Positions 8,455-33,184 of a DNA stretch of 64,000 nt are shown here, one piece after another; within the stretch, counting starts at the first letter, position 1, and every line of letters starts with the position of its first letter. Source of the stretch: Fragilaria crotonensis (Eukaryota; Bacillariophyta; Fragilariophyceae; Fragilariales; Fragilariaceae). The position numbers were made by a program, and so were the translations under genes. Below the pieces are notes generated by a model that saw only the letters and a program-made list of their open reading frames with translations, ran no database searches and was not told the origin of the DNA. The DNA lies in assembly GCA_022925895.1 (NCBI GenBank), contig JAKSYS010000191.1, positions 27,642 through 91,641 on the forward strand. The letters run 5' to 3'.

Positions 8455-9416
8455 CGTCCTTATGTCTTAGTTGCTATGGATGGCTGAACAACTTGGTGTC
8501 AATCCTTGTGTCGTCGCTGTGTTGTTGGAGAGTTGCAAGGTGCAACGTGAATGCTCGAAAATTGTACCCCCAGCACAACTCTCGTATGTTAGTTGCACTT
8601 CGATGAGTACAGTTGATGTCCCGAAAGCAGGAGTAGCAGATGGGGCAATTAGAGCAATGACGCATTTAGCACTCACTTCAATCTTTCATTGGTAAATGGC
8701 TAATGACGTATTTTTCCGATTGTGATGATCATCGCACCCCTGCACCCCAAAATCTCCGTGTCAACAACGAAAGGTGATGCGGCGCGAAAAAAATACCAAC
8801 GATGTGTGCTACGTGTTATGAGATTAAATGGGAGTAAATGGGGCTGCCTTTACGTCACACAGATGCAAGCTGCAACAGTACATAGATCAATTTCTTTCTA
8901 CACCGACAGTGACGAACTTACGTTCAGCCCTGACGAAGCGAACCCTATGGGTTTCGTCAGTTTCATGTCATTCGAGGCAGAGTTAGCTAAATTTTTGGAA
9001 AGGTTGCAGTGCCTCACTCGACATCGTTCTCATTTCTCATTGGACAACCAGAGGGAGCATGGAGGCGTGGTGGGAATCCCATCACACAGCCCAAGCATAC
9101 GCAGATGCCCTTTTGAGCCAGCTTGCTGGCAATTTCGAGGCTGGAAGGACAGGAATTTCCACCCGTTTCACATTTTAGGTTTATGCTAACAAAAATAGTC
9201 TACCTCACTCCACGTGTACACGGATTGTTATGGCTGAATGGACAATCGTATGCGTATGACATTCACCAGTAGACAGTAGACAGGCACACCATCACTCCAT
9301 CAGCAGTATGACTATGTACTGGAGCAATCCGAGGGTATAGTACCTGGTACCTTGTACGGAGTACAGCAATACAGCAATAGCCTGTTCGCGAAGTAAAATC
9401 GTGTCTGCTTCAGTCA

Positions 9417-9458
9417 CCTTCAATAGATGCATTGAGCACCTGATGCATCTATTGAAGG
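9417..9458. repeat. Perfect 16-bp inverted repeat (hairpin)
   Basis: The arms CCTTCAATAGATGCAT and ATGCATCTATTGAAGG are exact reverse complements, separated by a 10-base loop. It is A+T-rich and not followed by a T run. It immediately precedes the dispersed repeat at 9464 and may be the end of a small mobile element. Confidence 0.8.
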
Positions 9459-9463
9459 ACACA

Positions 9464-9570
9464 TGAATAAATAACACTCCAGACTTTGGAGTCGGGTGTA
9501 CCATGCCTTGTGTTGAATAACCGGCAGAAACAAAAATGAAAACATTTTGTCGGTTTGGTTTCATCCTTGC
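9464..9570 (+). repeat. Dispersed ~100-bp repeat, copy 1
   Basis: It aligns by eye with 16104-16202 over about 100 bases, including the shared blocks CCATGCCTT, TGTTGAA, CCG(G/A)CAGAAA and the identical 20-base end ACATTTTGTCGGTTTGGTTT. Both copies are in the same orientation, 6.6 kb apart. Likely a remnant of one repeat family; no coding potential. Confidence 0.7.
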
Positions 9571-14293: not shown

Positions 14294-14551
14294 TGTGGAG
14301 TACCGTCTGTACTGGAGTACTCTACTAGCTAGTAATGAGTACCTGCTAGCATAGTACGGAGTATCAAACTATCACACATCACATGCGCCCACCCAGAATG
14401 CCTGGATGGGCAGACCGAGAAAGAGCGCAAACATGCCGAATTGTGGCGAATTGTGAATTGTGATTCATCTCAAGTCAGTATTGTTTAAGCAGACTCCATC
14501 CATTGCACTGTTTCTCCCACAATAGCTTAAAACAACTTCTTTGAGTGCACT

Positions 14552-14990
14552 ATGATACTGACATCTCGTGTTCGGCAACTGATTGGCGCAATGATTTGCG
14601 TTGCAGCACTGACTCATCCACAAGTAGCATGTGTTGCTACCGATGAGCCAACTCCGGAAAAGTCTGAAACATGTGATAATCCTGAAAAGATCACACTATG
14701 GTCAATCGAAGAACTTGAAAAGTAAGTCACTTTGCTCCTCTTTTGAGAAAATTCACTATCAGTACAACCTGAAATACAACAGAAACAGCAAAGGAAGTGA
14801 GAAACGAAGCGATGATGAAATAGTGGTGCACCAACAAAAAGCTCGCAAATTTTTTTCAAAGCACCTTCAGCTTTTTGTCACACCACACGAAGCATCAAAA
14901 GTTAGAGATGACCACCAGTTACATAGCTACCTTTCGTTTAAAGCACACTTCAGTCAACTGTACTGGAGTGTATTGGCTCAATCAAAGTGA
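14552..14990 (+). CDS. Chimeric ORF: MAPR signal-peptide exon joined to an unrelated exon
   Basis: Exon 1 (14552-14721) is a diverged copy of exon 1 of the MAPR gene at 19099: same length (170 bp), same phase-2 donor GTAAGTCACT and a matching 61-bp intron ending ATACAACAG. After this acceptor the sequence (14783-14990) no longer resembles the MAPR second exon. Even so it stays open for 69 codons, basic and ending LAQSK-stop, giving a 125-aa predicted protein with an N-terminal hydrophobic segment. It could be a new gene formed by exon capture, or a truncated pseudogene whose new frame is open by chance. There is no haem-binding core. Confidence 0.45.
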
Positions 14991-15329
14991 AAGGTAATGA
15001 AATCAATGAATTGATTGAAGCTTCGAATGAGTTGACGTTGTGTAGCATGCTTAGACTGCATACTATAAATCCGGGTCTATTTTGTGTTATCTTCCGACCC
15101 GAAAAACTCGAAAAAATTGGCAACCTTTTCTTTCCCATTAACAGAAGTCAGGAACTGTCGTTTACTAAGATTTCCCCATTTGGCCCACAAGGTTTGACTC
15201 AATGGAGAACACATTTGCCATGTTAATTTTGGTGCAAATGACATAATGACGAAGTTGAGTGGAGGCCCAAAATTATCTTTAATTAAAGATTTTACCTAAG
15301 CGATCTTTAATGAAAGATTTCGGGCGTTC

Positions 15330-15761
15330 ATGTCCTCGGAGCCTCGGAGTAGTATTCTGCCTCATTCCATCATATGTACTATGTACATACGTGTAGGGAC
15401 GAGCCCGTGCATCGTGTATGTCGAGGATAAGCGTTTACTGACAAGCGACAGTAGCAGTGGAAACGGGACTGCTATGACAGTGCAGTACGCACGACCGACA
15501 GTCGTGCGGAATCTGGAAGATTCGTTCAAGAATATTTATTCGGGATTCGTAAATGGAATACGAATTCCTACGGATGAGGTCCAACATGCAAGATTAACTG
15601 GTACGATCGAAACGAAAGGAATCAACGGTGCAAGAAATATAATTACTGAAGATGCATGGATTGAGGTGAAGAACAAGGCTAAGAAGGTTACTTCCAAGAA
15701 GCAAGATCAATTTGGTAAGACCAAGAGGTCTGGGAGGATTGATAGGAGTAATCTTAAGTAG
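15330..15761 (+). CDS. Uncertain ORF with basic C-terminus
   Basis: Open for up to 143 codons from an ATG at 15330, with internal ATGs at about 15387 and 15474. The last 35 residues are strongly basic (KNKAKKVTSKKQDQFGKTKR then SGRIDRSNLK), which is more gene-like than the first half. No family is recognised. It may be a chance ORF, or the last exon of a decayed nuclear-protein gene; the RIDRS motif loosely recalls KIDRSTLRKG in the gene at 6337-8454. Confidence 0.25.
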   Translation: MSSEPRSSILPHSIICTMYIRVGTSPCIVYVEDKRLLTSDSSSGNGTAMTVQYARPTVVRNLEDSFKNIYSGFVNGIRIPTDEVQHARLTGTIETKGINGARNIITEDAWIEVKNKAKKVTSKKQDQFGKTKRSGRIDRSNLK

Positions 15762-16103
15762 TCACAACATTGCAGAGAGGAAAATAAACAAGGGTTTATA
15801 GTGTTGTCAAACTACTAGCTGGTAGGAATACGGAAGTGTAAGTACTGTTGAACATCTCAACACGTGTATGTCATATCTTACCCCTCGTTGAGCCGGCCAT
15901 TGCCAGCAGCAGCGTACGGGAGTACTGTCCTCAACTAACTACTGATACGGTGAGTTCGGAGTTCGGAGTCTTGAGTAAAGTAGCACACTACCAGGTACTA
16001 CCGGTAGTAGAGCTAGTACACAGGACTACAAGTAAACGTTCGTGTCACCTTCTGTCACCTCCTTCTACTGGTAGATGCATGGATCCCACTATGAGGCAGA
16101 CAT

Positions 16104-16202
16104 AAACAAACAACACTGCTGACTTTGAAGTCTAAAGTTCCATGCCTTTTGTTGAACAACCGACAGAAAAAAGTGAACATTTTGTCGGTTTGGTTTCATC
16201 TA
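16104..16202 (+). repeat. Dispersed ~100-bp repeat, copy 2
   Basis: Partner of 9464-9570, same orientation. The shared end ACATTTTGTCGGTTTGGTTT is identical, and the rest is perhaps three-quarters identical by eye. Here it is followed by TCTATATAAAAGG, which looks like a TATA box, though no downstream gene is evident. Confidence 0.7.
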
Positions 16203-17096
16203 TATAAAAGGAAGTAGTCAGGTCCCACAAGTACCATTGGTGGTGCTATACAATTGTTTCATGTAATTATTGCTTGATCATTGGCTCCTATAGCAGTTGT
16301 CATGATGACAACAGTCACCAGTACATTGGCTGGAAACTCACAACTGATGTGCGGCTTTCTTCACTTTGAAGCACCACCAGGGTTGGGACCATTGAGAACT
16401 TCTACGCATCATGACTGGGCAGGTTTTTGTTCTACTGCTACTAGTACATCTACTTGTAATCATGGTAGGTAATAGCACACCACTGTGGACAGAAGTATCA
16501 TTGCTCTCATAGATGGCTTCTTGCTGATGGTGAGGTTGCAATAAAGGAGTGTCCCTCCTGTTGCTATCCTAAGATTATAACACAATCTCCTATATCATAA
16601 AATTTTTGTGAATAGCTACCAGCAGTCGGCCTGTCTTTCTGTGAAATCTGAAAGAAGTCGACTGTATAGTCTTCATCCCAGTGGCCAAAAATGAGCAACA
16701 CAACAATGATTAAAGATGGTTTCTGCAATTCGATGACTGGCAACTGGCAACCCTATCACATGCATTAGTAAAGCGAATTGAAAGGGTGAGGGGTATTTAA
16801 AGGAAATCGATTCAGCAGCCAGGAATTCTCTAAAATTTTTATACAACAGTGTATCAAGATTGTTCGTCAGAGCGTACTTTCGAGCTTCGAGTCGAATTCA
16901 ATGACGTCAATATGACGCAAAATGTTTGCCGCAGGCTGCGGGGCCGCGGGGTTGGTTCTTGGTGTTCTCTTCCGAGTTCGGAGGGAATTGCTTGCATATG
17001 ATACAAGTATGTTACAAGTACAAGTACAAGTACAAGTACTACTAGTAGTCGAGATTGAGATTGCTATCGCATCTAATCCGCTTAATACACACAGTA

Positions 17097-18430
17097 ATGT
17101 TTCCAAACTTGATCTTGCACTCGTGGATGAATCATCGCCAGCCATCGGCGATAGTTGTCATAGCCCTAGTAGTGTTTTTAATTCGTTCGGTCATTGCGGA
17201 TGTGCCTCCTCGCACTCGCGACACACCGGCACGCCCGTACCTCCCGTATCATCATCACAACAACAGCTTCAACACTGACACGAGCGAGTGGAACGTATTG
17301 GCAAAGCAACGTGTACGAGTGCAGCAGAAGAACTACGGCATAAGTACGAACGATGTTGCCGATGCCGTTGTTAGTTGCGGTTCCTGTTGTTATGAGATCG
17401 TGGCTGCCCGAAGTCCTCTCGATCTGAATTTTTACACGAAAATGATTGATTTGAATGGCTTTCTCATTGGAAGTTCGAGTGATGTCCGTGACTCGGCACT
17501 CTATGAAGCAGCGCTCACCGTTGCGACGATGACGGAAGAGCGCCCAGATTTATTGCAGTTACTTGTGGACGAGCAGGTCGTAATGGCAGTTATTGGGAAA
17601 GACCAAGTGACACGAGACATCCCTGACTATGCCGACTTGGATCCCGAATGGGATGTCTTTCGAGGACTTGCCGCAACTCAGTCAAGACCAACGACCTCCT
17701 GTGCCGAGGAGAATTTGCTGTGTTTGACGGACGATGTGTACCGCGGCGAGAACATTTGCATCCACGAAACTGCCCACTCTCTGGCTGGATCGGGGTAAAC
17801 TTCAGTCCACGATTTATGGATGGCGAGAATTTGGATCAAGTGCTGCGGAAAGTATACAGTAAGTCAGTCAACGTGGAAGGGCTCTGGTCCAGAACCTATG
17901 CAGGTACGAATCATGAAGAACTCTGGGCAGAGGGTGTGCAGTCATATTATGACGTCAACTACCTTGGTCCTGTCGGAGGTGATGGGATCCATAATGACAT
18001 CAACACAAGGGCAAAGCTCCAGAATTACGATCCCAATTTGTATGCTGTGACGAAGAATATTTTCGGGACAAGTTCAACAGGAGCAGTTACATGTCCTACT
18101 ACAACATGCAACTGCACCAAGTTTGTTTGCCCCTCGAAGAAGCCATCGCCGTCTCGAGCACCAACCAAGAAGCCATCGCCGTCTCGAGCACCAACGAAAA
18201 AACCATCGCCGACTCGAGCACCAACCAAGAAGCCGTCGTTGACTCGAGCACCAACCAAAAAACCATCGCTGACTCGAGCACCAACCAAGAAGCCATCGCC
18301 GTCACGAGCACCAACCAAAAAACCATCGCCGTCACGAGCACCAACCAAAAAACCATCGCTTACTCGAGCACCAACCAAAAAACCATCGCTGACTCGAGCG
18401 CCAACCAAGAAGCCATCGTCCATTGGTTAG
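17097..18430 (+). CDS. Secreted HExxH zinc metallopeptidase-like protein, frame broken at 17796
   Basis: Two overlapping frames read as one protein of about 444 aa. The N-terminus has a signal anchor (SAIVVIALVVFLIRSVIADV, ~residues 21-40). A zinc-binding helix ICIHETAHSL follows (~residue 225), then, in the next frame, FMDGENL, LWSRTYAGTNHEELWAEGVQ and YDVN. The second Glu-containing segment (NHEELWAEG) is a plausible third ligand site of a gluzincin-type fold. The frames meet at GGATCGGGGTAAAC, where one base too few in the G run causes the break. The tail (~residues 348-443) is about nine copies of a ten-residue KKPSPSRAPT-type repeat, like the mucin-like linkers of wall or extracellular proteins. 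ATG 17097 was chosen to precede the signal. The substrate is unknown. It may be intact with an assembly error, or a recent pseudogene. Confidence 0.7.
18137..18421 (+). repeat. 30-bp coding minisatellite, about 9.5 copies
   Basis: The consensus begins AAGAAGCCATCGCCGTCTCG and continues AGCACCAACC, encoding KKPSPSRAPT. Copies differ at a few fixed positions (AAG/AAA lysine codons; TCT/ACT/ACG), and similar variants sit side by side, as in unequal crossing-over. It lies in the C-terminus of the metallopeptidase-like gene. Confidence 0.95.
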
Positions 18431-19098
18431 GTGGAATTCGATACCAGGGCTGGTGTCGTTTTGACATCACCTAGTATTGAACTACATGTTAGGTACTCCG
18501 GTATGAGTGTTGTTTCCCGCGTGCTTAAAGTGCAGGTTGCCGTCAGAGTGGCTCCAGATTCTGTTGGCTTGTTGCCGCAGTCGCCAGACCGTCGCAGAAT
18601 GACGATTCTGGCGGATAGAGTTGCCCCTCGTTCGGTTATACGAGTATGTCAATAGGAAAGCTCCTTGTAGTCTAATTGAAAATGTTTTTGTTTATTCTGC
18701 ACTCGCTAACAGAGAGTACCTGGTGGCTGGTACCGGTACTAGGATTACGACGTAGTACGAGTATGGGAGTGTTACTACCGGTAGATTATCGAGTGCATAT
18801 CATATATTTACTTGATTGTAGCTTTACCGGCAGCGTAGAGTGTCGAGTGGTGGAGTACTAACGTACTGACTATAGTGTATGAAATTGCATACTGCATACT
18901 GTATGCACATTACACATCACACGCCCAGAATGCCTGAAACAGCTCAGAGCACGGGAAAGTGTAAGGAAAGACCAAATTCTAATACATGCCATTGAGAGTG
19001 AATTGTGATCCATCTTGAATCAGTATCGTTTAAGCAGACTCCATCCATTGAAGTGTTTCTACCATAATCGTTTGCTAGGAGAACAATTTTAGTGCAGT
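18431..19098. other. Intergenic, includes the duplicated MAPR promoter
   Basis: No gene seen. From about 18905 the sequence matches the region upstream of 14552: shared CACATCAC..CCCAGAATGCCTG near 18913/14377 and GTTTAAGCAGACTCCATCCA at 19029/14485. The duplicated block therefore starts well upstream of the ATG and carries the promoter. Confidence 0.6.
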
Positions 19099-19729
19099 AT
19101 GATATTGGCATCTCGTGTTCGGCAACTAATTGGCGCAATGATTTGCGTTGCAGCGCTGTCACTTCCACTGGTAGTCGTTGTTGCTGCCGACGAATCAACT
19201 CCGGAAAAAATCGAAACATGTGACAATCCTGAACAGATTCCTCTAGTGTCAATCGAAGAACTTGAAAAGTAAGTCACTCTGCTCCTCTTGCTGTGAGACT
19301 ATTCACTTGCGATACAAACTAAAATACAACAGATTCAATGGCAAGGTCAAGGGCGAGACGATTTATCTGTCCATCTTTGGCGAAGTTTATGATGTCACCA
19401 AGGGTGCTGAGTTTTATGCCGAGGGAGCTGGATATCACGCTTTCGCGGGCAGAGATGCAGCTGTGCCTTTCATCACGGGCATATTTACGGAGGAGGAGGC
19501 TGCGAAATCGACGGACGTTTTGTCAGACGCGGACCTAATGAGCATGAAATCTTGGCTAGAGTTTTATCAGAAGGAAGAAAGGTACCCATTTGTTGGTAGA
19601 CTCGTTGGTCGGTATTACGACAGTGAAGGCAAAGAGACCGAGGAAATGCAACGAGTCCTGACGAGATGGGAGAATTTTCAACCGCCGGAGAAGAAGGAAC
19701 GCAAAAAGCCAAAAACTGGGAGTGAATAA
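19099..19729 (+). CDS. MAPR-family (neuferricin-like) cytochrome-b5-like haem-binding protein
   Basis: Two exons, 19099-19268 and 19333-19729, with a 64-bp phase-2 intron, giving 188 aa. The N-terminus is a signal peptide or anchor (LIGAMICVAALSLPLVVVVA). The single b5-like domain (~residues 58-150) contains IYLSIFGEVYDVTKGAEFY, GAGYHAFAGRDAAVPFITG and LMSMKSWLEFYQKEERYPFV, then GRLVGRYYD. This matches the membrane-associated progesterone-receptor/neuferricin family, in which the Tyr and Lys positions bind haem. The C-terminus is lysine-rich and hydrophilic. It is the only complete one of three related copies in the window (others at 14552 and 28118). Likely role: haem binding in the ER or secretory system. 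Confidence 0.85.
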
Positions 19730-19747
19730 CTACGTTATAGAGGACTT

Positions 19748-19868
19748 AGATTGGCATGTCGAGAACTGCACCCAGTGGCCGTTCTGTCGCGCTCGTTCCA
19801 TCGTCTAGGTTTCCTATGCTTCCTGTGACCGTTATCTTTATCGCGTTTTGTTCAATGCAAGTCTCATG
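19748..19868 (-). pseudogene. Remnant of the 3' end of a HAD-phosphatase gene
   Basis: On the minus strand this reads IEQN-IKITVTG-I--LD-GTSATER-L-AVLDM, matching the C-terminus of the complete HAD gene at 28345-29526 almost residue for residue. Nothing upstream of this tail is retained here. It sits tail-to-tail with the complete MAPR gene. It marks the end of a duplicated block whose other half lies at 28.1-29.5 kb. Confidence 0.85.
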
Positions 19869-20202
19869 TCAATTGATTTAAGTAGAGGATGGATGATCTC
19901 ATGTGGCGAACATGATGAATAGAGCAGTGAACTCAGGCTGCCCTGGCTCATGGGTTGTCGTCATATCAGGCTCTCCATTAATTTGAAATGTTCGATGCAG
20001 TGAGGGATCTGTGAATGAGAGCAAATCATAGTGGGTGAGTGCACAAAGTGCAAATGGTACGTCACAACAAAAGCATACATACGTACCTACTATAGGACCC
20101 GGGACATCCAGCCAGCTATGCTCGGGACTGGCACGTAGAAATTTCTGGTGGTAGCTCGGGCACCCTCTCGGTGCTGAGCACTGTGTGCGTTGCCTAGTGC
20201 AG
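19869..20202. other. Intergenic DNA between the duplicated block and a MITE-like element
   Basis: No ORF or repeat of note seen. It is ordinary intergenic sequence ending at the terminal repeat at 20203. Confidence 0.4.
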
Positions 20203-20656
20203 AGGCCTCCTAAAGTGGCATTTCAGCAAAATGTGCCACCAAATGCCACTTTTAATATTGACGAGATGCCACTTTTAACGTTTTTTGTCGTGTAGAGTTG
20301 GAGCAGGTTGGCATTGTCCAAATGTCCTGTGGTATGTGATGTGTAGAACCCCCCGTAGGGTTTGCATGTTTGTTAAATCTTTCATTTTCAATTAAAAAAA
20401 CTAAAATTGAGTTGGCTCTGGAATCCTCTTGGCGTCATCTATTCATACATTCATACACGTAATTTCACTCGGCATCGATGCTCTAAGCGTGCATCTCTTG
20501 GGATTCCGTGGCGCACCCGTGGTCGTTTACTGACATCCTACGTGATTTTTGTACCATATCACTGAATGCCACCTAATGCCACTTTTAGTGGTAGAAATAT
20601 GCCACTTTTAGCTTAAAAGTGGCATCGGGTGGCATATGCCACTTTTTAGGAGGCCT
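20203..20656. mobile_element. MITE-like element with AGGCCTCCTAAA termini and ATGCCACTTTTA subterminal repeats
   Basis: The left end AGGCCTCCTAAAGTGGCAT mirrors the right end ATGCCACTTTTTAGGAGGCCT, with two extra A bases in the right arm. Just inside both ends the motif ATGCCACTTTTA recurs several times (20252, 20268, 20577, 20608 region) in both orientations, next to TGGCA half-sites. Such clustered subterminal motifs are typical transposase-binding sites. Total length is 454 bp with no ORF. No clear target duplication was found. Confidence 0.75.
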
Positions 20657-21329
20657 ACTAGTGGTACATAGACGCGCGGAAAGATTTCTGGAGCTAGCAT
20701 ATGCACTCTCCTGTGAGCATCTAATTTCACACGTGAGGGTTCATCTTCTCGTCTCAAAAATGCAACTTTTATATAATCTGGTATAAAACATATGATTTAT
20801 CAAAGCTATTGCACAATTCCTCGTCAATTCAATCCTTCTCGGGTGTTACCGCTGCCGCTCACATCAGCACCACCAAGGGCAACTGGTAGCTACTAGATCA
20901 GAGGGGGACACCACTTGCTGTTCCTGTGCCCTTCAAGGGCCATCTGCTTCTGCCTGAGTGTTTGGACATCGGAAAAATGTCATTTCGGCTTCGTCCTTGA
21001 TAAGGTGGCTCTCCAGCTATTCCATGATCTGGTAGGTCCTCAGCCAGTTGACATGATGAGGCAAGGGAGAAATTACTAAGATGGTACTATGATGCACAAT
21101 TTTGGTAAAAAAATGCTTGCTCTAAAGATGCATGATGATTTTCAGAAGAAGGGAGTATGGCTCATCATTGAAGGAGAACAATGGTTTAGTATACTCCTCC
21201 ACACCACTGAAATTGTCATCAGCACTGGATGGACCACTCAGCAATCTAAAAAGAAAAACGGTATACGACCCATCCCTTGTTCCCGGAATCAATTTATATG
21301 ACATACCTGTTTCAAAACACAGGTAGTAC
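20657..21329. other. Intergenic DNA between two TIR elements
   Basis: No gene recognised. Short frames around 21089-21430 are open but show no family resemblance and overlap the start of the next element. Confidence 0.4.
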
Positions 21330-22530
21330 AAGCATAAGCACAGTAGTGGACTGAAAAAAAATAAGTCGTACCGTAAAATCGTCGGGGGAAGCTCAGACTC
21401 TACCAAACGATGCAGCATGGTACGATGCATCTTCTGGGGTAAGTAGGTTGACGGAGGACAGATATTACGGGACTTACGTTTAGTCGAATGAAATATTTCT
21501 CAATATAATTTTAAGCACAGTAGTGGCACACCCTTGCTTCGCTCGTGTTATTTCAGCAATTTGAGTTTTGAAAAGAATTCAAGCCACCTCTATCATGGCA
21601 AATGGAGACATTAAGGCTGTTGCAATTGAGTCCTAATGCTTCAAACAACTTCACAATATGTTGATCTAAAGGCTTTCACATTTAAACTTCATCTACAAGT
21701 GGAATGTATGTTTTCCAATCATGACTGAGTGACAAGACTTTCACGGCAACACTCTTCTCGGCTTTCGTTTCTTGACAATGACTCTCAAACAACTCGGCAT
21801 TCACCCGATGGAATATGTCAAACTTCTTCATCCAGTTTAACCTTGCTATTCAGCACATGTTCTTTGCGCCGCTCCTGGTTCGCCCATTGCAATCATTCCT
21901 TGAGCTCGTTACTTCATCTCATGCGCCGTCTAAGAATGCTCCACAAGGATCTGTTCTTGTTGCTTTTGCAATTGCTGCTCCAATTATATCCGATTGCGAT
22001 TCCCAAATGCCGCCAGAGCCGTGTTGTGTTCCAATCTTTGTGGTTGCTTCCTGCCGACGCTATCGTTTCATTAGTTCCCGATGATAAGTCTCCCACTTTA
22101 ACACGACGACCACTTCGCGCTTGAATGCACGCTCAATTCCTCTTGTGACGCTACAGTCGCTTCATGCAAATCTATTCTGAGCTCGGACTTGAATAGAAGG
22201 CGCTCTTCGTCGTTGAATGATGACATTTCATTATTGTTGTTTTGCAGAGCCTTTTGCATCTTTGGCGTCCTCAATCTTTGAGCAATTGTTTTCAAAATCC
22301 TCTGCGACAAAACTCTGAAAAAGTCCCCAACTTGAAGTCTTCGTATCTTTCGCATCGCAATTGCGACCTACAAACAAGCCACTGGACTTCCATACCAATT
22401 TCTGTCATGGTTAATATTGATAGAAGCCAAAATAGAAGTATTAGTGCATGAATACATTCATAATGGATGAAATAGCTAACTGTGCCACTACTCTTTGAAA
22501 AACGACCGTGCCACTACTGTGCTTATGCTT
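21330..22530. mobile_element. 1.2-kb element with 20-bp perfect TIRs flanked by GTAC
   Basis: The left end AAGCATAAGCACAGTAGTGG (21330-21349) is exactly the reverse complement of 22511-22530. Both are flanked by GTAC, which may be a 4-bp target duplication or simply extend the inverted repeat, since GTAC is its own complement. Further copies of the core lie inside: AAGCACAGTAGTGGCAC at about 21514 and GTGCCACTACT at about 22483. The interior has two minus-strand frames (22098-22355 and 21914-22096), Gln/Asn/Lys-rich and coiled-coil-like, with no DDE motif. Probably a non-autonomous or decayed DNA transposon. Confidence 0.75.
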
Positions 22531-23384
22531 GTACTGTACTGTCCTTTGATTTGAGAATGGTGTTTGTATGAACACCTGCAACAATGTCATAGTTGATAGA
22601 CATCATAGTAGCAGAGGAACGACAACAACATCTGGCTGCTCCTTACACCAAGATTCTCCTAGCTGCTGCTGACTGCAGCACCAAATTATTGTTAGAGCAC
22701 GTCATGCAGCTCATTGTAATCCAAAATTCACAGCGTCATGAATACATTACTCCTAGCAAACTCAACTAGTATCAATAAAGTTGCAATTAAATGCCATTCA
22801 CACATGGTAGATGGAAAATAAATGGTCTCAAATGTAAATTGCTTACTTACTCTGTAACTGATCAATTTGAGTCAATGAGGTGATGTGATATCTGCCTGTT
22901 CATTGTTTTGCTAACCCACCTGCCATACCCTGCAACTCCAGGCCTGTGCTACTAGTGAACCATCCAAGAGCATTTAGACTTTAGACTCCTAGTATCCTAA
23001 CATCATAGCTACTACAGTACTGCGTTCTTAGAACAACTACGACTGTAGAGTTGGAACTGGCATATACAGTACCAGTACTACTAGCGCAACCAGTATACCC
23101 ACTTACAGTCGCAATTTGGAGACTGGCACAGGAGCCGTAAAGGGAACCCCAAGCAAACCCAATCTAAGAGTCATCAGTACAGTAGCACTTCCCACTTCCC
23201 ACTTCCCATATCGACTGTTGTGTACCAGTAGCAGTAGGCTGAGGCACCGTCAGGGGAATCCAGAATTAATTCCTAGTAGTATCGCAAATGTCTTGCTCCT
23301 ACTCGTATATCACTCGAGTACCAGGTGTCCTGAAAGCTTATGACACTCAACACAACATTTCAGAAATTAGAAAAGGTCATCATT
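22531..23384. other. Intergenic DNA
   Basis: No gene recognised. It contains GTAC/ACTAGT motifs near 23010-23090 and a short CCCACTT triplication near 23187-23205. Confidence 0.4.
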
Positions 23385-26300
23385 AGGGGAGATCCGGGTA
23401 GAGTCGTGTTTCCACTAACGTTTCTGCTATTTCAGCTCAGAACCGGTTATGAGTCACAATAGCGGATCTGAAAAAGGGAATCTTGTTTCGCAATTTCCGA
23501 TAAACGTCGATCCTCGGGGCTTTAGTGGAAGTTTGAAGCTGCTTCATTCCACTACGTTTTCTGTTATCAAGACTCCGTTACACGTGTCAAAGTTTTGCTT
23601 TCTAAGTTCCACGCTGCACTACATTTATGTAGGCCAAAGCAGGACGTCGTATTAGAAGACAAAGCTGACAACATAAGCGTTCGAATTAGTCGGCACCAAC
23701 CGGAAAACGACGACATCCCTCTCACGCCATGACGTCGATTGCAAAATCGGTGCTGTGTCATCTTCATCTCAGACTTCTCATCTTTCCTAAACTAATGTGG
23801 ACATTGCGGATTCAACGGTACAAACGACAGTGCTCAAAATTTTGAATCCGCTGAGATTCGAGCAACAACACTACTTGACAACTGGACCTAGTGCGGAATC
23901 TCTCGTAACATTTCTGGAGGAATCCTTGTGCTGGAATTTATTCGAAACTAGTGGGTACCTCCCAATTGGTCGGACTTTTGGAATACGTGTACGGTATGGG
24001 TTGTGCACGGTTGTGTGTACTGTTTGTACAGTTCAGTACTATACGCAAGTAGTGCAGTACCCCAGAGTGGTCATACTCCGTAACAGACGCACGCACTGAC
24101 GCAACTACGTGTACTCCAGTATGCATGTATGACATATATCATACTCCCGAGTATGAGACAGTATTCATTTGATCCAGTACCCCAGAGTGGTCATACTCCG
24201 TAACAGACGGACGCACGCACGCACACACGCACACAATTAATTTATAATATTTCGAAATATCGAGCCTTGGTTTGGCGCGCTCAGAGCAAAAAAAACGATG
24301 TCGTCGCTCTCCGACCACAACGACGATTGCCATACAGATAAATGTATCCCCTAAAGCACTGACTAATGTTGAAACTAAAGACTAATATTGATACGGAAAA
24401 TCTATCGATAGAAACGACAGCGCTTAGCAATCCGAATTTGCTGAGAACAACCCACCAACAGGCATTCGATGAAAAAGCAACTCACAACGGAATCTTATGT
24501 GACGTTCTGGAGGAATCCCCTTGTCCAGGAATTTAGTAGAAATTTCACTTGCCCCACGTCAACCCGGATCTTATAACCCACGGGTTTTGTCAGATGCTAT
24601 CTGACAACACAGAAACCACCTATACAGTGCACTGTAGTAGAGTAGCCTACTATCTTTGAAGGTACGGGAACGCACGTCTACATATGCATATCATCCACCG
24701 CTTGCTCATGTTTCTGAGTAATCTAGTACTAGTACCAGGTACATGTAGACTGAAGTATGATACGTATGCATACCTGACACAGGCTTGATACTGCCCTATA
24801 CACGCAATACTTAAATGCTGCAAGATTTTACCATTTGTAGATCGTCGCCATAGTTTGGCCAATTAAATACTCAGAGTACATTTCAGGAAGGACATCGGCA
24901 GTTTTCCTTCAAGTACCGTAATTTACTTAGGGATTCCGAAATCAAAAGGCAGTACTCCAAAGTACTCCACATTGATTCATTGTATTTATTTGGCCAATCA
25001 AATATCAATCTGAACCTGAAAGGCAGAATATCATTTTTAATTAGATCGATTTGCTAAATCAAATATATGCTATCATAGTACAAAAGGCATTATATTAGAA
25101 TAACGAATAATATCAAATTCAGATACATACACACTGAATCTATTAAGTAAGCAATTTGATTCGACCAAATGGGTTGTCCGAAACAAGAAGGCAGTGCATC
25201 ATTCTTACTTACATTGATTTGGCCAATCGTATGATCTTCTGGAACAAAAGTCATTAAATCAATTATTATAGTTTGATGGGCAATTGCAATACTTAAAGAC
25301 TGGCTTCTTAAGTATCCAACCGATTAGCCCGCTCGGGCAATTTTCTTACCGTAAACAGAAGTTGTCATACAAAATCTGACAAACCGGTAAAGATCAGAGA
25401 TCCGCAGCAACACTCCTGTACCTGGTCATACATTATCTACAGAGGTACAAGAACCATGATCAACTGGATCCCAAGGTTTTGTCAGAATTCATCTGACAAC
25501 CATCTGACAGACCGCTAGAAAACCCCGCATGCTATCTGACAAACCCTGGGGATCTTATAACCCACGGGTTTTGTCAGATGCTATCTGACAACACAGAAAC
25601 CACCTATACAGTGCACTGTAGTAGAGTAGCCTACTATCTTTGAAGGTACGGGAACGCACGTCTACATATGCATATCATCCACCGCTTGCTCATGTTTCTG
25701 AGTAATCTAGTACTAGTACCAGGTACATGTAGACTGAAGTATGATACGTATGCATACCTGACACAGGCTTGATACTGCCCTATACACGCAATACTTAAAT
25801 GCTGCAAGATTTTACCATTTGTAGATCGTCGCCATAGTTTGGCCAATTAAATACTCAGAGTACATTTCAGGAAGGACATCGGCAGTTTTCCTTCAAGTAC
25901 CGGTAATTTACTTAGGGATTCGAAATCAAAAGGCAGTACTCCAAAGTACTCCACATTGATTCATTGTATTTATTTGGCCAATCAAATATCAATCTGAACC
26001 TGAAAGGCAGAATATCATTTTTAATTAGATCGATTTGCTAAATCAAATATATGCTATCATAGTACAAAAGGCATTATATTAGAATAACGAATAATATCAA
26101 ATTCAGATACATACACACTGAATCTATTAAGTAAGCAATTTGATTCGACCAAATGGGTTGTCCGAAACAAGAAGGCAGTGCATCATTCTTACTTACATTG
26201 ATTTGGCCAATCGTATGATCTTCTGGAACAAAAGTCATTAAATCAATTATTATAGTTTGATGGGCAATTGCAATACTTAAAGACTGGCTTCTTAAGTATC

Positions 26301-26624
26301 CAACCGATTAGCCCGCTCGGGCAATTTTCTTACCGTAAACAGAAGTTGTCATACAAAATCTGACAAACCGGTAAAGATCAGAGATCCGCAGCAACACTCC
26401 TGTACCTGGTCATACATTATCTACAGAGGTACAAGAACCATGATCAACTGGATCCCAAGGTTTTGTCAGAATTCATCTGACAACCATCTGACAGACCGCT
26501 AGAAAACCCCGCATGCTATCTGACAAACCCTGGGGATCTCTAATTCCGGATTTTCCCTTCCACTGTGTGTCCCTTATGACAACGGAAACATAGTGGAATC
26601 ACGACTGCACCCGGATCTCCCTAT
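23385..26624. mobile_element. 3.2-kb composite bounded by imperfect ~40-bp inverted repeats
   Basis: The left end (23385-23424; core GGGAGATCCGGGT..AGTCGTG..TTCCACTA..GTTTC) is mirrored by the right end (26585-26624), with about 36 of 40 positions agreeing by eye. Inside are a diverged direct duplication (about 23815-23945 versus 24405-24540, sharing ACGACAG, TTCTGGAGGAATCC and GGAATTTA blocks), a 41-bp direct repeat 120 bp apart (24055 and 24175; CAGTACCCCAGAGTGGTC), and the 984-bp tandem duplication. No transposase frame was found. It may be a large non-autonomous DNA element that has accumulated internal duplications. Confidence 0.6.
24567..26534. repeat. Near-perfect tandem duplication of a 984-bp unit
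   Basis: Unit 1 is 24567-25550 and unit 2 is 25551-26534, followed by GATCT, the first bases of a third unit. I found only two small differences, a G insertion (CCGTAATTT versus CCGGTAATTT) and a C deletion (GATTCCGAAA versus GATTCGAAA). Each unit begins with GGGTTTTGTCAGATGCTATC and ends with GCATGCTATCTGACAAACCC, so its own ends form an inverted repeat and the junction can fold as a hairpin. The identical 70-codon ORF found in both units is incidental. Confidence 0.95.
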
Positions 26625-26957
26625 TGTGTCCGAGACCAAGACTCCGAGTAGGAACGTAAAAGATCTGACAAGACTGGATGTTCTCAATGTTCATCCTGCC
26701 AGCCAAGGAAACAAGCCACTTGATTTCAAATTTCAACACGACAGACATACATCGATAAATGTCACAAAAATATACCCTACGGTTGTACATACTCGAGTAC
26801 AGAGTACCGAGTTGTAGTATGGTACTGTAGTACAGTACGTACCAGTAGGATGTTATGAATTATGAATCTCTCAGGGCTTTTTTCGAATTCAGTATACACT
26901 TCACACCTTCACACTTCGTCCAATGGACGAACTCGCCGCGGTGATCACAAGACGACA

Positions 26958-27751
26958 ATGTTGGCAGGTTCCAGGGCTGTTCGATGGCTCAGCACAAGCA
27001 AGCAAAGTACTATAGCTCCATTTGAAGCGCAATTGACGTCAGCGACGCAACGACACCGTGAGGCTCGAAGAAAGCGACAAGAACAGCAGCATCAAGCGCC
27101 AACCGAGGCTGACGATGGTAAGTCGTGTTGTGGTCGATTAAATGCATGTACTGGAGTATCCCACCAGATCGTATCCATGGTAAGAATGAGGGAGATCTAT
27201 TTGTCGAGAATAAACTAACCCAATTATTGAAAATGGCTGTTCGCAGATGCTCAACCTATCAAGCCTGCCTTTGGTGGTCGGCTCCCGTTGGATGGGGTAG
27301 GCGGCGTTTCGCAGGCTCACTCAGAATCGGCAACCGTCCAGTACCGAAGGAGCAAACGAGCTGCGGATGAGGAATCACGACGAGGTAGCGCATTGGTACG
27401 TGGTCAGTTTGCTTTGTTTGTGGTCAATCACCATGGAGTGTTCACTGATTTTTCTTTGGCACAATCCACTGGTAGTCCTTATCGAGCACGACAAATCAGC
27501 ATCGGCATCAAAGGCAGCCACGGACAAGAGAGTCATCGACCCACAAGGTCAACCCATCTGGTTCAATACTTCCTACGGATACTGCTGCAAATCAAGAGGA
27601 TGAGTTGCGATCAAACAACTCTCGCATCAATGACGGAGCACCGATACAAACCAAGCCGACCGACCAATTCACTCGTACAGCCGTGCGAACTCTCTCTCTT
27701 TTTGTGGCCGTCGCCACTGCTGCAGCATTTGGTAGTGGTCTTTTGCCGTAA
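26958..27751 (+). CDS. Small unknown protein, mitochondrial-type N-terminus and C-terminal membrane segment
   Basis: Inferred from three exons: 26958-27117, 27247-27395 and 27500-27751. Introns are 129 and 104 bp (GTAAGT..TTCGCAG; GTACGT..AAATCAG). Phases close to 186 aa. The N-terminus MLAGSRAVRWLSTSKQ is an Arg/Ser-rich amphipathic presequence-like stretch. A charged Arg/Gln-rich helix follows (HREARRKRQEQQHQ), then a disordered middle. The end has a hydrophobic segment (RTLSLFVAVATAAAFGSGLL) that could anchor the protein. No family is recognised. The third exon frame is supported mainly by its sensible ending; the intron 2 acceptor is a choice among several. Confidence 0.5.
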
Positions 27752-28117
27752 CAAGTCATGCATATGAAGGACCATAGATTCCGAGAAAAAACCTCCGCGA
27801 CCCAGAGTGCGACATTGTTCATTGAGTGCAAAATCATTGTGGGTGTTGTTCCAATTCATGGGCTCCATCCTCCATCACACGGAGGGAAACCACTTACACG
27901 AAAAGGATGACTGCATTTTCCAAGACAAGTTACCCAGTTTATGAGAATGTTAAGGTGGGACAGTCAGCTCGACTTCCGTTAGTTAAGTTCAATAATGTGT
28001 TGTCTATGCAAACAATCTCAGTCGTTCACCCAGTCCCGTCTTTTTGCATGAAAGCTGGAGAAAGCAGACTATCAGTAGCTGTGCGAACTTAGATCGCCGT
28101 TGTGTTGAATGGATTAC

Positions 28118-28320
28118 ACGAAACATGTGGTAATCATGAAAAGAATCTTGGCTAGAGTTTTATCAGAAGGAAGAAAGGTACCCATTTGTTGGTAGACGTA
28201 TTGGTCTCTACTACGACAGTGAAGGCAAACAGACCGAGGAAATGCAACGAGTCCTGACAAGATGGGAGAATTATCAACCGCCAGAATAGAAGGGAACGCT
28301 TAAAGCCAAAAACTGGGAGT
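28118..28320 (+). pseudogene. Broken copy of the MAPR gene (end of exon 1 fused to end of exon 2)
   Basis: It begins with GAAACATGTG-TAATC-TGAAAAGA, matching the end of exon 1 of the copy at 14552. It then jumps directly to sequence nearly identical to 19550-19720 (TGGCTAGAGTTTTATCAGAA, GTCCTGAC, GGGAGAATT), with the haem-binding core deleted. An in-frame TAG replaces the lysine-rich tail. It lies tail-to-tail with the intact HAD gene. Confidence 0.85.
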
Positions 28321-28344
28321 CAATAGCAGTACTTTATAAAGGCA

Positions 28345-29526
28345 TTAGATTGCCATGTCGAGAACTGCATCCAGTGCCCGTTCTGTCGCGCTCGTACCTT
28401 CGTCGAGGTCACGTATGCCTCCTGTCACTGTTATCTTGATCGGGTTTTGTTCAATGATTTGAGCCATGCTTGTCGAGCTAATGCCTGGGACGAACGCCCG
28501 CTTGCATGCCAAGGCCATTTCGAGATCATTGTCATCATCGCACAAACACAGTGCATTCTCGCCCAGCACTGTTTCTTCCGTACACAGTTTTCTAGCGACA
28601 TATTGGCAACTAACTAGATGTAAGGAAACGGATCGGCGCGAGGTAAACAAATGCATTAATGGAGCTCATGACGTACCAGTTCTTCTTGCCACTATCATGC
28701 GGATAGAAGTCAACACAACCAAGATTCACTGAGGTTGCAATGCCTTCAGGCGGCGTCATCGAGGATAGGGCATCAAACTCAATTCGCGATACCGCATCTT
28801 GTTGCTTACGATTTACGCGGAAGCAGACTGAGTACCCCGTGGTGTCGACGACAAATCCTTGTCTTTGGAGTTGGCGGCAATACTCCCATAGCGGGCCCTT
28901 CCTCTGGTCAATAGGTATGGGAGTTGTCGACGAATCGTCGTCGAGCTCGTTCCCCACGAATCCATCGACACCAGCTGTCATCTCCATCTTCAATCGCCAT
29001 TCCATGTCTTCTTCCAGACTAAAAGGCTCTAATTCCGACTCGTCGGCACCGTCAAACGGTTCCAGCTTGAAAACAGAACTCTTGTTATCTGGCGGGACGG
29101 GATAAAAAATGCGCCCACCGGCCTCGCAGCAGTAGGCGTCGGCACGAGGGAGATACGCAAGGCGTTTCCACATTGTGGTGGACCGCATGCCACTAATGAG
29201 AACCAACGTTTTGCCTCTCCGTCGTAGCGCTTGACATTGGCGCAGAGTTTCAGAGGAAATGATGCCCCTCATACCTGTCGAACTCGGTGGGAGCTTGATA
29301 ATTGCGTTACTTGGATCGACTACTTGGTCATCCACATTTTTGGGTAGTGGACAAGAGTGCCGTCAACGTCACTAAACACGATTTGGATATCCGTATTCAA
29401 TGTGGATTCTCGCTTCTCTGGTGCCATCACTGCTATCGATGACAGGCTTGACGGAGATTCGGCAGAAGAAACCAATCGAAAGATACCGAGGAGTAGTACG
29501 GCGAACGTTAGGGCAGCTGCAGCCAT
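28345..29526 (-). CDS. HAD-superfamily phosphatase (Cof/sucrose-phosphatase-like), one-base frame break near 29340
   Basis: Exons are 29526-28677 (with a frame break) and 28609-28345, separated by a 67-bp intron (GTACGT..TAGTTAG), giving about 371 aa. A hydrophobic N-terminus (ALTFAVLLLGIFRLV) suggests a signal peptide or anchor. Motif I is FSDVDGTLVHY, motif II is VLISGMRS, motif III lysine lies in SGKKNCC, and motif IV is CDDDNDLEMA. The order and spacing fit type-IIB-capped HAD phosphatases acting on sugar phosphates. The first and second frames meet in CCCAAAAATGTGG, where one further A would restore continuity (HYPK / VDDQVVD). The ATG at 29526 was chosen because it directly precedes the hydrophobic segment. 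Substrate unknown; an assembly error is more likely than inactivation. Confidence 0.8.
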
Positions 29527-30767: not shown

Positions 30768-32408
30768 CGTCCTATGCGTTTTGTGCGATTTTGCATATGC
30801 ACTACATGTAATAACGGATGCGGACGACTCGAATACATAAATCAATGTTTGAGTCGTCGGTCCTGCTTCCGTGTGTGCCAACCTCTTGTCTGCTGACATG
30901 CTAACATGAACAAGGACCGTGCTACGCAGTTTAGTGAAGCAATACTACGGTCGTGCACACGGTATCCTTGGTATGTTTACTAACCCACCATCAACCGTTG
31001 TATTGGTGACACATGATGTTGCAGATGGCGTGAGGGCGTCAACGTACGCCTCGTGCATTAAGATGCACCATAACGATAACCTTGTCTATGACCCTCACCG
31101 TCCTTTCCCTTCCACTAAGTACCTTTTTAGTATACCAAGCTGGGACCGATTTGGTCGAGACCTCCATTTGTTTCTATCGGTTTCAGCTGGATGATGTGAT
31201 CAGCATATGCATTATTGGTCCTGTATTGCTAGAACCCATTTCATTTTGATCCTTGCCATTGACTCAATATGGTCAGGTGGACAAAATTGATGACTATAGT
31301 TTGCAGCTTGGGTGGCACTGATAACAATGCAATATGCTGCTGGTGAAATAAGAAGGGAGACCAGAAATCCACCTTTGATATAATTCCAACTCCAAAAGCT
31401 GTGTTACTAGTAATATTTACCATTATGATGCTAGACAAGTAAGATTTATATGATGATGATGTCAGTAGCTAAGAATTCAGTAAGTGACTTATAAGATCCA
31501 TCCATGTCTTGGATCCATGGAGGTATTGAGCAAAGAAAGTGTTACGCACCTTGACCAACAAGCTTTATTGGTGATGCTCCTGAAGGTGCTTTTACACTCA
31601 TACTACTTCCTACTTTCTTTGCAGTATGATGCAGTAGCTAAGAGTCCTGATTTCATCCTTCTTGTCACCAATGGTAAACATGAAGCTTAATGCATTGTTC
31701 CCTGGCGGAAGGATGTTTTGTAGTTGCAACTGAATTTGATGTCAGTATGACTGATTTAGATTGCCTTATCCTGTGGAAGTTGGACCCATTTCTAAGCACA
31801 GCAGAGCGGCTAGCACACAATCAGATACCTTCTTCCACAATAAAACTGCACAAGACCACCACAGCATAACTTGTCTGCGTTTATAAAAAAAGAAACACCT
31901 TTATCTATCATCATATCTAACAAGGTCGATAATATGCATCCGTTATAAACAGTTGTCATAATCTATGACGCTTTTCTATCATCGTATCTAGAGCCAAGTA
32001 TTTGCAACCACTTCCAGACGGTTGTCGTAGTCAGTGTTGCAAGTCTATGTGCATTGAGATTACATAGGCATGTACATCCCTGCTTGCAACATATATGCGA
32101 CGTCCATTTGTTCATGTGCGTGCTTGACAACCAGTTGGTAAGCTCGACAGAGAAAGAGGACGATTGCGTTCTGTCAATCCAAAAAAAATTGTGTTTGAGC
32201 TGAAATTATTGGCATCCCTTCCATCAAATGATGTTCTACCAGGAACCTTGTGTGCTTAATGACCTGGAAGGTCCGGCCGCACCGTCGGAATCGTGGAAAA
32301 TCCGAGAACACGTGACACAACATCGTAGGAGTATCGTTCCCACGCTGAGTCCTTTTCAACTGAAAAAAGCAAGGCCGGCGCGTTTATCATGCGGATCCTG
32401 ATCAGTGC
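30768..32408. other. Intergenic, no gene recognised
   Basis: About 1.6 kb with scattered stops in all frames. Short frames at 30919-31194 and 31484-31690 have no family resemblance. The last part leads into the palindromic repeat array. Confidence 0.4.
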
Positions 32409-32706
32409 AATTCCACTTACCATAAGTGAAATTCCACTTACGGTAAGTGAAATTCCACTTACCGTAAGTGGAATTCCACTTACCGTAAGTGGAATTCCAC
32501 TTACGGTAAGTGGAATTTCACTTACTCACAATCAGAAAGAGACACGTGTCGCCTACGCAGATCAGTATGAAGACATTTTCAGTAAGTGAAATTTCACTTA
32601 CGGTCAGTGGAATTCCACTTACGGTAAGTGGAATTTCACTTACCGTAAGTGGAATTTCACTTACGGTAAGTGGAATTCCACTGACCGTAAGTGAAATTTC
32701 ACTTAG
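32409..32706. repeat. Palindromic 21-bp repeat array in two clusters
   Basis: The unit is AATTCCACTTACCGTAAGTG followed by G. It contains two overlapping palindromes, centred on GGAATTCC and on CTTAC-C/G-GTAAG. Cluster 1 (32409-32522) has five units in a row. Cluster 2 (about 32580-32706) has six and is itself close to a perfect palindrome. A 57-bp unique spacer separates them. Variants differ by G/T in GGAATT(C/T) and by one GTCAGTG for GTAAGTG. Long ORFs on both strands here (SEIPLTVSGIPLTVS..) are a by-product. Confidence 0.95.
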
Positions 32707-33184
32707 CATAAGAATACCTTGCCGGCTCGTTTGGATCAACCGTTCCAGCTACAAATATCGCAACACACGTTATTGGAAGCCAGCGTACGTGGAATTTCTC
32801 CGGTAACGGAGCGTAACGGCTAGAACTTGTTTTGGCCGGACCTTCCTGGGATGTAAGTATTCTACTGCTATGCCTTCACCTGCTTAATGCTTAATGGCTC
32901 TACAACAAGTGTACCGTGTATTCCTGACGGACTCAGAGTACTATACTGCATTTAGAGCTAGACAAAAACTGGCACATCGTAGCGCCTTGACGACGGAACG
33001 ACAATGTACAATAAGCACACGCAATGTCGCACGACACGGGTACGACAAATATGTTACGTAACCACGTTTGATCACACGCATTCCATACGACAAGCACATG
33101 GGCTTGGAGTTTTATCAAACCTAATGGGAGGTCGAAAGCGCTAATGCAGAAGGTCGTTGTAGACTTTAAGCTCAGCCCACTGAT
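32707..33184. other. Intergenic DNA downstream of the gene at 33185
   Basis: No gene or repeat recognised beyond the palindromic array to the left. Likely holds the 3' UTR of the minus-strand gene that ends at 33185. Confidence 0.35.

Follow-up and report, generated by a model that had tools for sequence, protein, structure and literature searches.

Partial copies of a MAPR gene and of the tail of its convergent HAD-like neighbour in a transposon-rich locus

The window analysed here is a 64,000-nt stretch of contig JAKSYS010000191.1, and all coordinates below are positions in it. It holds three related blocks, P, Q and R, with parts of a MAPR gene and of a HAD-like gene lying tail to tail. 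An earlier note explained the blocks by duplication of the whole gene pair followed by reciprocal loss, since Q and R each keep the gene of which the other has only a piece. The question is whether such complementary remnants record the loss of two complete genes or a copy that was partial from the beginning. A literature search found nothing on this locus in the titles and abstract openings listed.

The three blocks and the MAPR gene

The gene-derived features are as follows.

14371 to 14783, plus strand: block P, with MAPR upstream region, exon 1 and intron, breaking at the start of exon 2 (blastn against Q, gene structure)
18909 to 19729, plus strand: upstream region and intact MAPR gene of block Q (blastn, gene structure, domain search, PDB matches)
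19746 to 19857, minus strand: HAD tail in block Q, the last ~36 codons and the stop, frame open (blastn, frame reading)
28120 to 28143, plus strand: scrap of MAPR exon 1 in block R, 24 nt (blastn, shuffle test)
28144 to 28326, plus strand: MAPR exon 2 tail in block R, frame-shifted and with stops (blastn, frame reading)
28345 to 29526, minus strand: HAD-like phosphatase gene, ATG at 29526, stop at 28345-28347, 67-nt intron at 28610-28676 (frame reading, model searches)

In blastn comparisons the blocks are collinear and in the same orientation within 15 kb. Block P matches the 5' part of Q, and block R (28144-28456) matches the 3' part of Q, with E-values of 1e-84 and 4e-96 for the two main matches. 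The common descent of the three blocks proposed in the earlier note is thus borne out by pairwise alignment. Between P and Q (14371-14807 and 18909-19361), 343 of 460 columns are identical with gaps counted, the core reaching 81% over 340 columns, and the MAPR upstream region is alike as well as the 5' part of the gene. Between Q and R (19548-19857 and 28144-28456), 276 of 313 columns are identical (88%). Eight flank-to-flank comparisons of the blocks gave weak matches only and no clear tandem junction; the best of these, also weak, had an E-value of 0.007 over 40 columns (72.5%; 19999-20037 against 27806-27845).

A DNA search of the 62.1 Mb assembly matched MAPR DNA only in P, Q and R. Alignable copies in one orientation were thus found at a single locus and nowhere else. 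Haplotig misassembly was considered and rejected, since the blocks differ by 12-19% and no second contig carrying them was found. Scans of the window for tRNA genes (ARAGORN with the bacterial code) and for Rfam families found none.

The MAPR gene of block Q has an intact frame. Its ATG is at 19099, exon 1 spans 19099-19268 and exon 2 spans 19333-19729 with the stop at 19727-19729, the two being separated by a GT-AG intron of 64 nt (19269-19332). The product of 188 aa contains a Cyt-b5 domain (PF00173, residues 52-115) at 38.2 bits against a curated cut-off of 23.7, a domain that it shares with MAPR/cytochrome-b5-like proteins such as PGRMC1. The closest PDB entries, both with an E-value of about 3e-14, are 1t0g and 1j03, titled 'cytochrome b5 domain-containing protein' and 'putative steroid binding protein', which we take to be plant MAPR proteins. 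The PGRMC1 structure 4x8y matches at 2.9e-9, whereas an entry titled Cytochrome B5 (6nzx) matches at 0.0075. The protein is therefore nearer to MAPR structures than to cytochrome b5 proper, and presumably resembles plant MAPR and neuferricin. Other matches in the genome, outside the locus, are only 28-36% identical.

In block P the ATG lies at 14552, exon 1 is open, and both splice sites are kept around a complete intron of 61 nt (14722-14782). Because the intron and the upstream region are kept, P is a DNA-level copy and was not retroposed. After the predicted splice, 125 codons are open in a transposon-derived frame. P could be a small chimeric gene in which the signal-like exon of MAPR is spliced to that frame. 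The openness of the frame, however, says little. Of the other transposon copies, seven were tried and three were readable; in one of these (L017; not in L018 or L020) the matching frame is open as well over the 60 codons read.

In block R the exon 1 scrap is joined to the exon 2 tail; the frame changes, and stops occur. Relative to Q, ~310 bp are missing, among them the intron and the larger part of exon 2. The scrap is found by blastn at an E-value of 3e-4, and none of 20,000 plain shuffles of the 74 bases that precede the R boundary, all scored against P only, reached its score.

The HAD-like gene and its tail in block Q

MAPR and HAD lie tail to tail, as the earlier note had recognised, and their stop codons are ~16 bp apart. 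The gene beside R has two long frames that adjoin at an A-run (29332-29344). An intron would not fit there; one base therefore breaks the frame, and the break is either real or an assembly error. The run is preceded by CCC. A programmed frameshift was considered and rejected, the RNA downstream folding no better than shuffled sequences (z 0.33; 123 of 200 at least as well).

Membership in the HAD superfamily, class IIB-like, is likely from two motifs read by eye in the translation, FSDVDGTL and CDDDNDLEMA, which we take to be the DxDGT motif I and the DDxND motif. A read-through translation, spliced and carrying X where the frame breaks, scored below the curated cut-offs of the HAD models: 17.2 against 20.9 bits for Hydrolase_3, 15.3 against 20.3 for S6PP and 21.8 against 41.8 for HAD-SF-IIB, with four other models lower. 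The best PDB match of the product had an E-value of 0.15, and scans of genome-contig and viral-contig collections for relatives of a 241-aa piece found none.

DNA and protein searches of the genome matched the HAD body once. In the blastn alignment the HAD match of Q breaks off abruptly at 19857, and apart from the last ~36 codons the same searches found nothing of HAD, either beside Q or elsewhere. The earlier description thus holds for the blocks themselves, for the structure of P, and for the intact MAPR gene in Q and the broken one in R. It has to be corrected for the HAD gene, which is not cleanly complete, and for its tail in Q, which comprises about 36 codons and a stop rather than ~40 codons.

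Mobile elements at the block edges

Mobile elements lie between the blocks, again in agreement with the earlier note.

14784 to 15328, plus strand: fragment of element A (545 bp; DDE_Tnp_1_7, piggyBac-type DNA transposon), truncated on both sides (element-copy comparison)
15418 to 15867, plus strand: element B, a probable solo LTR between P and Q (39 of 42 repeat matches fall here)
19858 to 21324, no strand assigned: element H, a decayed DDE_Tnp_4 (PIF/Harbinger-type) element interrupted by younger repeats (relative on contig C438)
21325 to 22534, no strand assigned: element D, with terminal inverted repeats of 24-26 bp, found in one other place (95%) (repeat search)
23381 to 26627, no strand assigned: nested repeats E and F and tandem pair G (repeat search)

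The intron end of block P runs straight into the inside of element A. Three full copies of this 3.1-kb element were read, with 3,110-3,121 bp between the terminal repeats; the fragment beside P is cut internally on its left, and on its right it stops ~10 bp before the terminal repeat. The HAD tail of Q adjoins element H, which is 67-73% alike to its relative in three pieces. The low identity blurs the start of H, whose pieces begin at 19841 or 19876 depending on the query, so that on the element H side the joint at 19857 is inferred. By eye, element B is flanked by a duplication of 5-6 bp. Its copies elsewhere form pairs with a spacing of about 5.6 kb. The units of pair G, ~985 bp each, are 99.8% alike (24566-26539).

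Origin of the blocks

We consider it fairly probable, judging from the sequence, that the blocks arose by an ordinary local DNA-level duplication of MAPR with the last ~36 HAD codons, followed by truncation at transposon-linked breaks. The ancestral MAPR and HAD-like genes would have been convergent, their stops separated by about 16 bp. One or more local duplications that took MAPR with its 3' end would unavoidably have taken the last ~36 HAD codons on the opposite strand, ending within HAD and leaving exon 1 in three or more copies. Q would have remained the working MAPR gene, presumably expressed. R, beside the only HAD gene, would have lost its 5' part, including the ~310 bp that hold the intron and the larger part of exon 2. 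A rearrangement that ended on one side within the piggyBac-type transposon would have cut P where the intron meets exon 2, and the HAD tail of Q would have come to end at the decayed Harbinger-type element. The breaks would be transposon-associated deletions, and the remaining gaps would have been filled later by other elements. The event is of a known kind, and nothing points to a new function.

Duplication of the whole convergent pair, with Q losing HAD and R losing MAPR, is a rather unlikely alternative, although Q and R are indeed complementary. The HAD tail of Q is open over 36 codons and shows 14 differences from R in 111 nt, with Ka 0.106, Ks 0.266 and Ka/Ks of about 0.4, as would fit a HAD copy that was once under selection. 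Selection on the R side alone, however, could give the same ratio, and the surviving HAD gene is itself frame-broken. The sharp end of homology at 19857 and the failure of genome searches to find more than the last ~36 HAD codons tell against this part of the earlier note. Since no further HAD was found, a duplication that never included the rest of the gene needs fewer steps; the same absence is also compatible with later deletion of a second HAD.

To the earlier note the exon 1 end of R had further looked closer to P than to Q, a hint that P and R might derive from one copy split apart. P does cover the 5' half, R covers the 3' half, and the scrap is slightly nearer to P (22 of 24 positions) than to Q (21 of 25). 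These differences are too few to justify grouping P with R. One identical 24-nt stretch of exon 1 is shared by P, Q and R, and P runs past it through the intron, so that P and R overlap; an insertion of ~13 kb between the halves would moreover have to carry Q. A split copy is therefore disfavoured, and we regard it as very unlikely. Capture and transport of the fragments by transposons, in the manner of Pack-MULE or Helitron transduplication, would account for gene fragments abutting internal transposon sequence at two edges. It seems highly improbable, however, as all blocks lie in one orientation within 15 kb and MAPR DNA was matched on this contig only; none of the other copies of element A or H was accordingly seen to carry MAPR (40 of 64 candidates were scored). 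Retroposition deserves almost no credence: P is refuted as a retrocopy by its intron and upstream region, and R keeps the tail of its antisense neighbour and has no poly(A) tract in the sequence read by eye.

The divergences between blocks, which the earlier note had proposed to estimate, bear on constraint and relative age. Exon 1 of P and Q differs by 13 synonymous and 15 non-synonymous changes (Ks 0.397, Ka 0.13; binomial 0.012), so that the lineage of P, of Q or of both was under constraint, which Q alone may explain. P as a selected chimera was accordingly rejected, the openness of its frame saying little. The differences number 28 of 170 in exon 1 of P and Q against 9 of 132 in the exon 2 tail of Q and R (Fisher 0.013), a comparison of different gene parts, and those in the exon 2 tail become denser beyond 132 nt (12 of 144 when the stretch is lengthened slightly). 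At 13 of 42 sites, as compared with 4 of 26 and 6 of 27, the synonymous differences are too few to decide. The contrast between exon 1 and the exon 2 tail hints that P might be older.

It is doubtful, but conceivable, that the remnants were kept as 3' ends, the HAD tail of Q serving as 3' UTR and terminator of MAPR and the MAPR tail of R serving HAD in the same way. If so, genes that overlap tail to tail would be unable to duplicate without taking along, and then retaining, part of the neighbour.

Partial local duplication, the reading that we prefer, would make this locus a compact example of a gene copy that gains its neighbour's tail in a transposon-rich genome and then erodes from both sides. 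Complementary remnants need not mean reciprocal gene loss where 3' ends nearly overlap. As in known partial local segmental duplications with pseudogenised copies, the copies are near to each other, equally oriented and of unequal length, the intron is kept, and one open copy stands among broken relatives. The locus differs in that fragments of DNA transposons have overwritten the block edges, so that the original duplication junction is unreadable. With whole-pair duplication and reciprocal loss it shares the complementary pattern of Q and R, each keeping the gene that the other has piecewise, but it differs in that no sign was found of a second HAD gene ever having been whole.

Gene content of the three related blocks

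Comparison of the window with itself gave two matches among the three blocks, 14453-14783 in P against 18998-19333 in Q (80.9% identity) and 19548-19857 in Q against 28144-28456 in R (88.2% identity), and these confirm that the blocks are related. Under gentler scoring the P-Q match reached up to 14371/18909, about 180-190 bp 5' of the start codons.

14371-14783, + strand: block P, remnant of MAPR, a cytochrome-b5-like gene
About 18909-19857: block Q, MAPR (+ strand) tail to tail with the end of HAD, a HAD-like phosphatase gene (- strand)
28120-29526: block R, MAPR remnant (+ strand) tail to tail with HAD (- strand)
ATG 29526 to stop 28345-28347, - strand: HAD gene, with one 67-nt intron

The full MAPR gene of Q starts at ATG 19099, has a 64-nt GT-AG intron and ends at stop 19727-19729. 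Its frame of 188 aa is intact, in line with the earlier note, which had called MAPR complete in Q. A Cyt-b5 domain in the protein scored 38.2 bits against a cut-off of 23.7, and its PDB matches were 1t0g, 1j03 and PGRMC1. P retains the start codon, open exon 1, donor, intron and acceptor, and MAPR similarity ends at about 14783. P was thus correctly described as having only the upstream part, exon 1 and intron of MAPR.

The HAD gene shows DVDGT and DDDND motifs. Since none of its family scores reaches the curated cut-off, the name rests on these motifs and weak matches. HAD had been considered complete in R; the ATG, intron and stop are indeed present, but the frame is interrupted by one base. 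The first frame stops soon after the DVDGT motif, a second long frame carries on with no room for an intron, and the two join at an A-run (29332-29344). This could be a true one-base break of the gene or an assembly error at this run. On the minus strand CCC precedes the A-run, a combination that matches the pattern of a -1 slippery heptamer. RNA downstream of the break folded no better than shuffled sequences. No relatives of a 241-aa HAD piece were found in genome and viral contig scans.

Transposons at and between the blocks

Block P runs into a 545-bp stretch (14784-15328) of element A. Among the best 40 of 64 candidates, 38 of the scored P matches fell on this stretch, and the other two were P itself and Q. 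Three full copies of element A were read, with 3,110-3,121 bp between the terminal repeats CTAGTGTCTAAACGC... and ...GCGTTTAGACACTAG; one encodes a DDE_Tnp_1_7 transposase (1.6e-19), of the piggyBac type. The piece at P starts internally and lacks about 10 bp of the far end of the element. Being cut at both ends, it is not a clean insertion.

Beyond the HAD tail of Q, sequence up to 21324 (element H) aligns in three pieces to another contig of the assembly, C438. The first piece starts at 19876, or at 19841 with a longer query, and the transposon-side edge at Q is therefore blurred. A frame of C438 overlapping this piece matches DDE_Tnp_4 (1e-6, above cut-off), which is of the PIF/Harbinger type. 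The element beside Q is decayed and broken up by younger repeats.

Mobile elements, which had been proposed to separate the blocks, were found in both intervals. That between P and Q contains a probable solo LTR, on which 39 of 42 matches of one search fell; the other three were the query itself and two short matches elsewhere in the query. The Q-R interval contains repeat C, with matches at 8 other places, repeat D, with a match at one, and the nested repeats E, F and G.

24566-26539: element G, a direct tandem of two units of about 985 bp (99.8% identity) that sits within an older element

Element G has matches of at least 600 bp on at least 13 other contigs, and matches spanning both units are present on C876, C143 and C442.

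Several other features lie in the window. A short pair outside the MAPR blocks (9391-9565 and 16030-16200) is 74% identical and 6.6 kb apart. In a gene-like region at 17055-18430, two long frames overlap, with a run of PTKKPS-type repeats at the end. A palindrome-like repeat of about 300 bp at 32402-32712 gives numerous self-matches, at 81.7-98.8% identity, on both strands. A bZIP + PAS protein is located at 46723-48192; it resembles an aureochrome, in keeping with a photosynthetic stramenopile source.

Origin of the blocks

Q holds only the last ~36 codons and stop of HAD, in a frame that is still open, and the homology ends at 19857. The stops of MAPR and HAD (19746-19748) in Q are separated by 16 bp; any MAPR copy with some 3' flank therefore includes HAD codons. 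The simplest account is that MAPR was duplicated locally at the DNA level together with its 3' end, which brought in the HAD tail, and that P, Q and R were truncated afterwards.

It is possible, as the earlier note proposed, that the whole MAPR/HAD pair was duplicated and then reciprocally lost. This would require a second HAD body; searches of the assembly (62.1 Mb, 881 contigs) showed no trace of one, and the proposal was not supported. The sole match of the 241-aa HAD piece was its own locus, and block R matched only itself and Q. Block Q with its flanks gave seven matches, namely Q, R, P and four others confined to sequence downstream of the HAD tail of Q. Of the nine matches of the MAPR protein, four were on this contig (the two Q exons, R and P); the remaining five, of 28-36% identity, lay on three further contigs. 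As these searches scored the best first-look candidates in a possibly incomplete assembly, the case for the absence of further MAPR/HAD copies is strong but not absolute.

The first 24 nt of the MAPR part of R (28120-28143) match exon 1, and the exon 2 tail begins immediately after them, at 28144. Relative to Q, R lacks about 310 bp (19237-19547), which take in the last part of exon 1, the whole intron and the greater part of exon 2. The scrap agrees with P at 22/24 positions and with Q at 21/25, and when the 74 bases preceding the R boundary were shuffled, none of 20,000 shuffles equalled its score against P. Its counterparts are located at 19213-19236 in Q and 14666-14689 in P. At least three copies of this stretch therefore existed, which disfavours the earlier suggestion that P and R derive from a single copy split apart.

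The differences were 28/170 in P-Q exon 1 (Ks 0.40, Ka 0.13), 9/132 in the Q-R exon 2 tail (Ks 0.18, Ka 0.05) and 14/111 in the Q-R HAD tail (Ks 0.27, Ka 0.11), synonymous counts too small for the order of duplication to be read from Ks. Synonymous changes are in excess in P-Q exon 1 (binomial 0.012); the P and Q lineages were therefore not both free of constraint throughout, and constraint on Q alone may be enough for this excess.

Eight comparisons of the block surroundings gave no clear tandem junction. The best, 19999-20037 against 27806-27845 (40 columns, 72.5%, E 0.007), has the sense predicted for a tandem Q-R junction. Being a weak hit for a set of eight tests, and located in a stretch that resembles element H, it was not counted. 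The remnants in P, Q and R represent an ordinary kind of event, of modest interest, that is well preserved for reading.
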